In this document: in pieces, positions 13,868 through 36,260 of the stretch
How positions within the stretch are numbered: the stretch's first letter is position 1
Layout: the number at the start of each line of letters is the position of its first letter
Origin: Candidatus Erabacter solicola
Lineage (GTDB): Bacteria; Vulcanimicrobiota; Vulcanimicrobiia; Vulcanimicrobiales; Vulcanimicrobiaceae
Assembly: GCA_003136895.1 (NCBI GenBank)
Contig: PLDY01000034.1
Span: 1 to 36,350 of the forward strand
Direction of reading: 5' to 3'
Length of the DNA: 36,350 nucleotides
Notes under the pieces: model-generated
What the model was told of the DNA's origin: nothing
Database searches by the model: none
What the model saw: only the letters and a program-made list of their open reading frames with translations
Program-made: the position numbers and the translations under genes

Positions 13868-15265
13868 TTACGAGCGAGCGCGAGCCGGCGGCGTCTCGCC
13901 GAGGTCCCAAAAGAGCGCCGTCATCAGTCGCAGCGCCTCCCGCGCAACCGGAGCGAGCAGATGCTCGTCCACCGCGTGCTGCGAGCACGCCGGATACGAG
14001 TGTGGAATCCAAATCGTGGGCAAGCCCAAGAGCGTGGCGAAGATGTCGTTGGGAAGCGAGCCACCGAGATTTGGTAGCACCACGACGTCTTTGCCGGTCG
14101 ACGCCGCGATCGAGTCCGCCGCCCACCGCACCCAGGGATGATCGGGATCGAGCCGCGTCGCCGGAAAGTAGCCTTTCTCGGTGCGACGGATCTCGACGCC
14201 CGCGAAGCCTCGATCGTCGAGATGCCGGCGTAATGCCGGCAAGAATCCGTCGGGGTCCACGCCGACGACAAAGCGCATCGCGCAGTGCGCGCGCGCCGTG
14301 GGTGGAATCGCGTTGACCGGGCGCTCGGGATTGCCCGTGACGAATGCGAGCGTCTCGAACGTGTTCCAACCGATGACCTTCTCGGCCGTCGTAAGCCCCC
14401 GTTCGCCCCACTCCGGGTCGATCTTCGGGCCGTCGCCGCCTTCGCCGATCGTCACGCCGCGCAACAACTCGCGAATCCGCGCCGGAAGTTCCGGCGGCAA
14501 CCAGCCATCGACCAAGATTTTTCCGCGCGCCGTGGTGATGCTGGCGAGCGCGTGCGCCAAGACGATCCCCGGATTGGCGAGCGCGCCGCCCCAATTGCCC
14601 GAATGATGCGCGCCTTCGCGCAGGTTGACGATGAGATCGAAGTTGAGCGCCCCGCGCGCGCCGAGAAAGATCGTCGGACGCTCGGCGTTGACGCGCGGCC
14701 CGTCCGACGCGATGAAGATATCGGCGCGCAGGCGCTCGCGTTCGCGTTCGCAGATCGCGCGCAGCCCAGGCGAGCCGACCTCTTCGCCCGTCTCGATCAG
14801 GATCTTACAGTTGAAGCCGAGTTTGCCGCGCGTTTGCAGTACCGCATTGAGCGCACCGAAGTTGATCGAGTGCTGCCCCTTGTTGTCGGCCGTGCCGCGT
14901 CCGTACATGCGATCGCCGATACGCGTGAGTTTCCAGGGTGAGCGTCCGTCGCTCCACTTGCCTTCCATGCCCAAGACGACGTCACCGTGCCCGTACGACA
15001 ACACGGTCGGCAACGTCACGTCCTCGTTGCGCTCCGCGATGAGGAACTCTCCGGCGCCGGCCGGATTCTCCAGGAGCGTGCACGTGAAGCCCAAGCGCTC
15101 GAGCGAGGGGCGAATCTCGTTCTCCAGATACGAACGGAGAACGCCGGCACGATCGCTCGCCTGACTCTCGGTCGGAATAGCGACGCGGCGCGCGAGATCC
15201 TCGGCGAATCGGCCTCCGTCAAAATACGCGGTGACGCACTCGCGCGCCGCCGGCTTACCCGTCAC
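13868..15265 (-). CDS. M20 family metallopeptidase / amidohydrolase
   Basis: 465 residues from GTG at 15263-15265, which overlaps the tdh stop as GTGA; upstream residues in the open frame are shadow of tdh. Di-zinc ligands are visible: His and Asp in SYGHGDVV, the bridging Asp in GRGTADNKGQ, the catalytic Glu pair in TGEEVGSPG, the Asp of ASDGPR, and the last His in PHSYPACSQHAVDEHL. A dimerisation insertion lies between (LGARGALNFDLIVN...HSGNWGG). This resembles the dipeptidase/ArgE-DapE-CPG2 group but the substrate is open. Placement between tdh and a TtuC/DmlA-like enzyme suggests a role in peptide or amino-acid catabolism. Confidence 0.9.
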   Translation of the reverse strand: MTGKPAARECVTAYFDGGRFAEDLARRVAIPTESQASDRAGVLRSYLENEIRPSLERLGFTCTLLENPAGAGEFLIAERNEDVTLPTVLSYGHGDVVLGMEGKWSDGRSPWKLTRIGDRMYGRGTADNKGQHSINFGALNAVLQTRGKLGFNCKILIETGEEVGSPGLRAICERERERLRADIFIASDGPRVNAERPTIFLGARGALNFDLIVNLREGAHHSGNWGGALANPGIVLAHALASITTARGKILVDGWLPPELPARIRELLRGVTIGEGGDGPKIDPEWGERGLTTAEKVIGWNTFETLAFVTGNPERPVNAIPPTARAHCAMRFVVGVDPDGFLPALRRHLDDRGFAGVEIRRTEKGYFPATRLDPDHPWVRWAADSIAASTGKDVVVLPNLGGSLPNDIFATLLGLPTIWIPHSYPACSQHAVDEHLLAPVAREALRLMTALFWDLGETPPARARS

Positions 15266-32794: not shown

Positions 32795-33810
32795 TCAGCG
32801 GCCGTTGTACACGCACGCCGTATGATCGGGCTCCGCGGTCCACGGAATCTTCGGCTCGGGGTGCTTCTCGGTGAACTGCACGAGATTCGCAAGTCGCCCA
32901 CCGCTGGCGATGCTGCCGATGTACCAACCTCGCCGAAGGGTGGGATCCGGAACGTCGCTCGCTCTCCACGTAATCCCGATGCTGAAGTTCGGTGTCGCGC
33001 CGGCCTCTACGCGAACGGCCGCTTCCCCGAAATACGCTTCCCCGTTCGGCCCAGCACCATGGACCGTGACGACTTGCGTAGGGACGTTCTGGAGATCCAT
33101 CACGACCATCGTCCACCCTCGCGACCGCATGCGGAACTCGTGACGCGCGAACGCGCCGTCCATGACTACCATCTGAGGCAGGCCCCACTGGCAGTCGGCC
33201 GTCGACGCGCTCGCGACGGGGACGTGAAACGTGTAGCCTTGCAGTTCGTGCTTCCCTCCGACTGCACAGACGTGCGGAACGAACGAGGGCTCGAGGGCGA
33301 CATGGCATTTCCTGCAGAAATGCACCAGAAATGCACGTCCGCGGCGCTCGGCACGTTCGCGGTGCTCAGCCCGAACATGTAGCCTTGCGCAACATGTCCC
33401 CCGCCGGCGGCGCAGCGCCCCTTGTTCGGGTCACCGTCCCAAAACATCGCGAAGCACTTGTTGCAGAAGCGTCAGTCGTACTGCACGTTGCTTCCGAGCT
33501 TCTGGGTATCGTAATGAAAAGAGTACACCGCGGCGTTGGCCCCGCGGAACGTCACGTGCTGCCCTCCAACCAACGGACAGACGCCCTTGGTCGAATATCC
33601 GTCGAAGAACAGTGCGTCGCACTGCTCGCATGCGCGCCAGTCCGATTGATTGCCGACCTCTGCGCTCGCCGGTCTCGGGTAGGCCCACAGCCCCATCGAC
33701 GCAGCGAGCGCGATGCTGCTGGTGCCAATCGACAAAACGCGGCGCCGTGAATACACGGCCGCCGTCTGCAGGTCAGTCGCTTCGGTCGTCTCTGAATCAG
33801 ACATCCGCAT
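32795..33810 (-). pseudogene. Tat-exported protein with three Cys-rich W-x2-C-x2-C...C...GG-x-H repeats, disrupted
   Basis: From ATG at 33808-33810 the frame encodes a Tat signal (SRRRVLSIGTSSIALAAS, cleavage near PASA) and a first Cys-rich repeat (WRACEQCDALFFDG...GVCPLVGGQH). A TGA at 33472-33474 then sits exactly where the repeat Trp should be; repeat 2 (RFCNKCFAMFWDG...GRCAAGGGH) continues in the same frame. At 33315-33336 an 11-bp tandem duplication changes frame; deleting one copy joins repeat 2 to repeat 3 (FCRKCHVALEP...VCAVGGKH) and a C-terminal beta domain up to TGA 32795. Without those 11 bases the span is 335 codons, showing that only two lesions broke the gene. Each repeat is a likely metal-binding C-x2-C...C...H module, found in uncharacterised bacterial secreted proteins. 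Confidence 0.85.
33315..33336. repeat. 11-bp perfect tandem duplication
   Basis: CAGAAATGCAC occurs twice back to back (33315-33325 and 33326-33336). It lies inside the Cys-rich repeat pseudogene, and removing one copy restores the reading frame. This is a typical replication-slippage product, indicating a recent event since the copies are identical. Confidence 0.95.
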
Positions 33811-34012: not shown

Positions 34013-34250
34013 TTACGATCTCGCCGGAATCAGCGGCGCGCGATGGCGACCTCGGCCATATAGGAAAGCGACGTAGCGACCGTGGCTGACGACCTGCGCA
34101 CCGATCTTGATGAGCTTCTTGCGTAGACTCGTGAGCGACCAATCATGGAGCGGCTCAGGCGTTACGAGCGTGCGAAAGAAGTTCCCAAGATTGTACGCCA
34201 ACGCGTGCAGTTGAAGCCGCCGAGTCCCGCTGAACGGCATAGCTAAGTCG
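34013..34250 (-). mobile_element. IS1380-type transposase, 3' remnant
   Basis: The minus strand encodes RRLQLHALAYNLGNFFRTL...WSLTSLRKKLIKIGAQVVSHGRYVAF, the typical C-terminal segment of IS1380-family DDE transposases. The final MAEVA-like piece lies in another frame, so there is a frameshift near 34060. The catalytic upstream part is absent: coding similarity stops near 34250, where the integrase remnant begins on the other strand. No terminal inverted repeats or target duplications could be identified. It is an inactive scrap. Confidence 0.78.
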
Positions 34251-34613
34251 GCTCTGCAAATTGGAAGGGTCAAGTACGCGAAGTGGAAGCTCGCGGCTGG
34301 AGAAGCCTGGGGCGATTCCGGCTACTAATCACCGACGAACTCGGGCGGAGACTGTATCCGAACACCCTTACGGATGCCTTCAGAAAGCTCTACGAGCTGC
34401 TCGATATGCGATACCGACTCCACGACATGCGTCGTACGAATAGCAACCTTCATGTTGCACGCAGGCAAGAGCATCGACACCGTCCAGCAGATTCTCGGTT
34501 ACGCAGCCGCCTCGACCACCGTCAATATATACGAGCACGTAACAGATGCGGCCCATTGGGGAGCATCCTTTTCAACTCGCCATGCCGATCTTTCCGCCTC
34601 CTGGTTTCATTGA
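34251..34613 (+). pseudogene. Tyrosine recombinase (phage-type integrase), C-terminal remnant with two frameshifts
   Basis: Three successive frames join into one catalytic domain: KWKLAAGEAWGDSGY (to 34325), then LITDELGRRLYPNTLTDAFRKL...LHDMRRT (34325-34438), then ATFMLHAGKSIDTVQQILGYAAASTTVNIYEHV (from 34443). The first switch fits loss of one C at about 34325, where the uninterrupted text would be TACCTAATC. The second fits one extra base in 34439-34442. HDMR carries the catalytic His and Arg, and Tyr in NIYEHV is the nucleophile position. The N-terminal core-binding domain is missing. It is the only recombinase trace in the decayed region. Confidence 0.82.
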
Positions 34614-35944: not shown

Positions 35945-36260
35945 CTAAGGACTAAGCAACAGCTTCCCGGTCGTAGCGCGACCCTCAAGCTCCGCGTGTG
36001 CGCGCGCGGCATCCGCGAGCGGATACTCGTGCTCGATTCGCAGCTTCAGCTTGCCTTTGCGCATCGCAACGAACAGGTCGCCTGCGCGCCACGCGATTTC
36101 GTCAGGCGTTTGCGCGTACATTGCGAGCGACGGGCGGGTCAGGAAGAGCGAACCTTCGCATTGAGGACTTGCAGATCGAACGGAGCACGGGACCGCTCGA
36201 CGATCCAAATACGACGAGATAACCGCGCGGGACGGATGGTTGATTCGCTTTCATGCTATG
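35945..36260 (-). pseudogene. Quinone oxidoreductase (MDR family) C-terminal remnant with two frameshifts
   Basis: Read on the minus strand, three frames spell one Qor C terminus: PRGYLVVFGSSSGPV (about 36232-36190), PFDLQVLNAK (about 36188-36158), and GSLFLTRPSLAMYAQTP...GKLKLRIEHEYPLADAARAHAELEGRATTGKLLLSP to the stop at 35945. Frame changes fall near 36183-36189 and 36150-36155. The first two thirds of the enzyme, including the nucleotide-binding fold, are absent; similarity fades near 36260. It cannot make a functional enzyme. Confidence 0.82.

Follow-up and report, generated by a model that had tools for sequence, protein, structure and literature searches.

A minus-strand coding region of 1,016 nt (32795–33810), encoding a cysteine-rich repeat protein with an export signal, is broken by an in-frame TGA and an 11-bp duplication near one end of the 36,350-nucleotide stretch of DNA that was analysed (hereafter the window). 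The question that it raises is whether these lesions mark a gene that has been lost, one that can be switched back on, one that is read through, or one that is intact in the cell and misrepresented in the draft genome. We consider it probable that the locus is a young pseudogene, the intact form of which would have been a protein exported by a Tat-type route and composed of three zinc-ribbon-like modules and a C-terminal domain, its function having been lost in the host genome. As a gene relic the locus is ordinary. The protein family is worth annotating: its module, probably zinc-binding, is found in several bacterial phyla beside extracellular enzyme-like domains and has neither a curated family nor a solved structure, so that many proteins could be annotated from a small structural study of one intact relative.

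A coding region broken at two places

Read on the minus strand, the region begins with a start codon and a Tat-type signal peptide (33661–33810) that carries SRRRVL at 33733–33750 and terminates in a cleavage-like ASA. Repeat 1 (33505–33645; WRACEQC...C...GGQH) is complete, with a small insertion 3′ of its His. The in-frame TGA (33472–33474) occupies the site of the Trp that opens repeat 2 in relatives, one of which has YDWRFCSRCFAMF, and repeat 2 itself (33361–33471; RFCNKC...C...GGGH) is missing only that first residue. The duplication (33315–33336), consisting of two exact head-to-tail copies of CAGAAATGCAC (33315–33325 and 33326–33336), causes a frameshift where repeat 3 begins (33197–33325; HFCRKC...C...GGKH), which is diverged and has neither the opening W-R nor the second aromatic residue. 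The C-terminal region (32795–33196) ends in TGA. A search of the curated libraries gave no family match for it, no relative was found in the 98 other genomes of its taxonomic family, and its single-sequence structure model, mostly strand, is of very low confidence (pLDDT 31) and uninformative.

The three pieces left by the lesions were searched separately and unmended. The family modules remain recognizable in them, with profile E=5.3e-16 for repeat 1 (itself 1 of the 23 profile rows) and E=2.9e-17 for repeat 2 (not a row), in a frame that is broken relative to intact homologues; repeat 3 is weaker, with E=0.05 in a search of the genome and 4.6e-6 by BLASTP against a relative in another genome of the taxonomic family (G087, described below). 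The frame is more than chance, because G+C at third codon positions of the three pieces (0.77, 0.85 and 0.77) lies within or just above the range of the window's other genes (0.71–0.82) and because intact homologues exist. The pieces on either side of the duplication align to the relatives with E between 1e-17 and 5e-6. An earlier note on this DNA had proposed that exactly two lesions break the gene, an opal codon at 33472 replacing the Trp that opens repeat 2 and an 11-bp tandem duplication that shifts the frame. Both were confirmed, a relative having YDWRFC where the window gene has YD-stop-RFC, and the length proposed for the mended gene is exact (1,016 − 11 = 1,005 nt, or 335 codons with the stop counted). 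An imperfect 18-bp tandem pair at 33333–33367, in frame with the gene, adjoins the 11-bp duplication, and the stretch around the two may be slippage-prone.

The earlier note had suggested looking for intact orthologues in related genomes. Across 99 genomes searched in the taxonomic family, relatives turned up in 4 others (G087, G077, G094 and G068). Two intact tandem genes are present in G087, from another genus (L019; 363 and 357 aa; E=1.3e-31 and 9.2e-27), and the relatives in the other three are shorter or weaker. The tandem genes share with the window gene a Tat-type signal, three modules and a similar length, at 33–63% amino acid identity over aligned pieces. Unlike the window gene, they have open frames, and no relationship was detected between their C-terminal region and that of the window gene. 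One of the two has YDWRFCSRCFAMFYNG at the site where the window gene has YD-stop-RFCNKCFAMFWDG, a sense codon that supports Trp at the position of the window stop.

A second member of the family, beyond the reach of the earlier note, was found in the host genome on another contig (C25:14102–15144), and it too is broken. Its TGA (14234–14236), in CEAMF-stop-NGG, stands in place of a residue that is aromatic in relatives, and the frame is shifted at about 14289 by an additional T within a GGTTTTC run. Because the lesions of the two copies differ in place and kind, they arose independently. No other member was found in this genome, but at about 92% completeness it may lack an additional intact copy.

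A module that is probably exported and metal-binding

The module spans about 45 aa with the pattern W-R-x-C-x2-C...C...H and is present in several tandem copies per protein. Six columns (C, C, F, G, C and H) are invariant across the 23 repeats aligned, and W, R and G are nearly so. Sequence searches of Pfam, NCBIfam and the PDB turned up no entry for the module itself, in keeping with the earlier description of the repeat family as uncharacterized. Searched against curated zinc ribbon profiles, none of the window pieces exceeded a cut-off. Single repeats match zinc ribbon families weakly but consistently (E 0.02–0.05), and one relative, a Spirosoma plasmid protein, exceeds the PF13240 cut-off (31.8 versus 25 bits). 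A single-repeat model of moderate confidence (pLDDT 79), for which the input rows came solely from the window and a Rhodospirillales metagenome-assembled genome (MAG), consists of a hairpin around C-x2-C plus a third strand; a fold search with this model gave nothing significant (best E=1.4).

The invariant CCCH set, the weak zinc ribbon matches and the hairpin-plus-strand model make a four-ligand metal site likely, and we infer that the module is probably zinc-ribbon-like. One metal ion, in all likelihood zinc, would be bound per module through C-x2-C, the third Cys and the His. With the zinc ribbons (Zn_Ribbon_1 PF13240, Zn_ribbon_19 PF14369 and the RPB9 type) the module shares a C-x2-C knuckle in a β-hairpin; it differs from them in having a third Cys and a His where zinc ribbons have a second C-x2-C, and in being exported and tandem. 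The rusticalin-type cysteine-rich repeat was considered and rejected, its cysteine spacing (Cx6Cx6-7Cx8Cx7CC; PMC6339383) differing from the C-x2-C...C...H of the module.

The family is predicted from its signal to be a Tat-type exported protein. An SRRxxL...ASA pattern is shared by the window gene (SRRRVL), its paralogue and the G087 relatives (SRRRIL and SRRQAL among these others), and TatC is present in the genome over its cut-off, so that both a twin-arginine signal and the Tat translocase are in place. The Tat assignment of the earlier note is in this way strengthened by conservation of its SRRRVL...ASA signal in the paralogue and the intact relatives. On the most economical reading, the modules would be folded with their metal before export, act as extracellular binding modules and be joined to varied partners.

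Outside the taxonomic family, the module keeps varied company. In Spirosoma it is joined to a matrixin-like metalloprotease (WP_231780091.1), in Paraburkholderia it occurs alongside NHL repeats, and in the Rhodospirillales MAG (L023) it accompanies a weak match to DUF4185 that lies below the Pfam cut-off; DUF4185 corresponds to the GH183 endo-D-arabinanase family (PMC10115798). The Spirosoma and Rhodospirillales proteins share with the window gene the same module, in three to eight copies, and differ from it in that their modules are joined to an enzyme-like domain, whereas the C-terminal region of the window gene has no recognized domain. Because the module adjoins a matrixin-like metalloprotease, a DUF4185/GH183-like domain or NHL repeats in several phyla, its sequence context suggests a secreted binding module. 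Outside the cytoplasm, the modules would offer a platform for binding, the ligand probably being a surface or extracellular polymer, beside variable partner domains, with both ligand and function conjectural. On a Spirosoma plasmid (L024, 3986–4960), three modules are followed by a matrixin-like metalloprotease domain with HEVGHVLGLEH. Three contigs of a viral collection (L057–L059, classed as viral) also encode the module; among phage records, no match turned up.

Error, switching or recoding

Could the gene be intact in the cell, with duplication and stop as assembly or consensus errors? The genome is a draft of 176 contigs, which leaves room for such artefacts, but the window's long genes have uninterrupted frames, base-call errors do not usually take the form of an exact 11-bp tandem duplication, the paralogue has different lesions and the flank contains further gene remnants; we regard this explanation as unlikely. 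One of the remnants, on the minus strand at 34016–34258, is found at a single place in the genome and is a neighbour, not part of the gene; from its translation we take it to be a transposase C-terminus. Another, on the plus strand at 34283–34571, is likewise not part of the gene and has a frame that is broken inside, with RLHDMRRT in one frame and LHAGKSIDTVQQILGYAAASTTVNIYEHV in another; it is presumably a tyrosine recombinase, and a Pfam search of the open reading frame at 34283–34571 gave no match. With these remnants on one side and an intact LemA and TPM-domain pair on the other, the gene borders a run of decayed genes. Further along, at 35947–36250, lies a C-terminal fragment that lacks its N-terminal part and that we assume to derive from a quinone-oxidoreductase-like dehydrogenase.

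A second possibility is that the 11-bp duplication acts as an on/off switch of the gene, as two exact tandem copies can be lost through slippage. The earlier note had called the lesions reversible-looking. As a functional idea this is not supported: two reversions would be needed, one of them of a point mutation, and the sole paralogue found is broken by unrelated lesions, so that gene loss fits and phase variation does not. Even with the duplication removed, the stop codon would still block expression; switching is rare with two 11-bp copies, and the frameshift of the paralogue sits in a run of only four T. We regard slippage phase variation as very improbable.

Whether TGA terminates at all bears on the remaining alternative. 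The genome encodes an RF2 that exceeds its cut-off, and the programmed frameshift site typical of RF2 genes, CTTTGAC, is present in it; TGA is therefore a true stop here. Of the 16 long window genes checked, 5 end in TGA. No SelB exceeded its cut-off in the roughly 92% complete genome, and neither selenocysteine nor TGA-as-Trp, both of which were considered, is supported. Although each copy has an in-frame TGA at an aromatic position plus a frameshift, we give the least credence of all to a full-length product made, in both paralogues, only by coordinated recoding in which UGA is decoded as an amino acid and the ribosome makes a programmed change of frame, because the genome encodes RF2, itself under a UGA-controlled frameshift, SelB was not found, several window genes end in TGA, the TGAs of the two copies lie at different module positions, their frameshift sites also differ and intact relatives have sense codons.

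The best reading is that the window gene and its paralogue are two young pseudogenes, produced by two independent losses, rather than parts of a reversible switch. Function would have been lost in the host genome through independent breakage of both members found, each by a stop at an aromatic position and a frameshift.

Age and setting of the probable loss

The earlier note had judged the lesions recent, and a neutral simulation supports a young age. The coding region has 1 stop in 335 codons and retains all 11 Cys codons of its three pieces; under the simple mutation model assumed, divergence above about 0.08 substitutions per site rarely leaves at most one stop together with all 11 Cys codons (P=0.016 at 0.08), so that the lesions are young on that divergence scale. 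The sampled genomes include no second one of the host genus, and the lesions are therefore not datable against a close orthologue.

Some relaxation of constraint may be older than the lesions, as repeat 3 is diverged, repeat 1 carries a small insertion and the third-position excess, clear in repeat 2, is weak in the other pieces. Differences by codon position are saturated in part and carry little weight. Across the phylum, the repeat family was found in 5 of 149 sampled genomes, and this distribution, together with the breakage of both copies in the host genome, fits a dispensable trait that is patchily kept.
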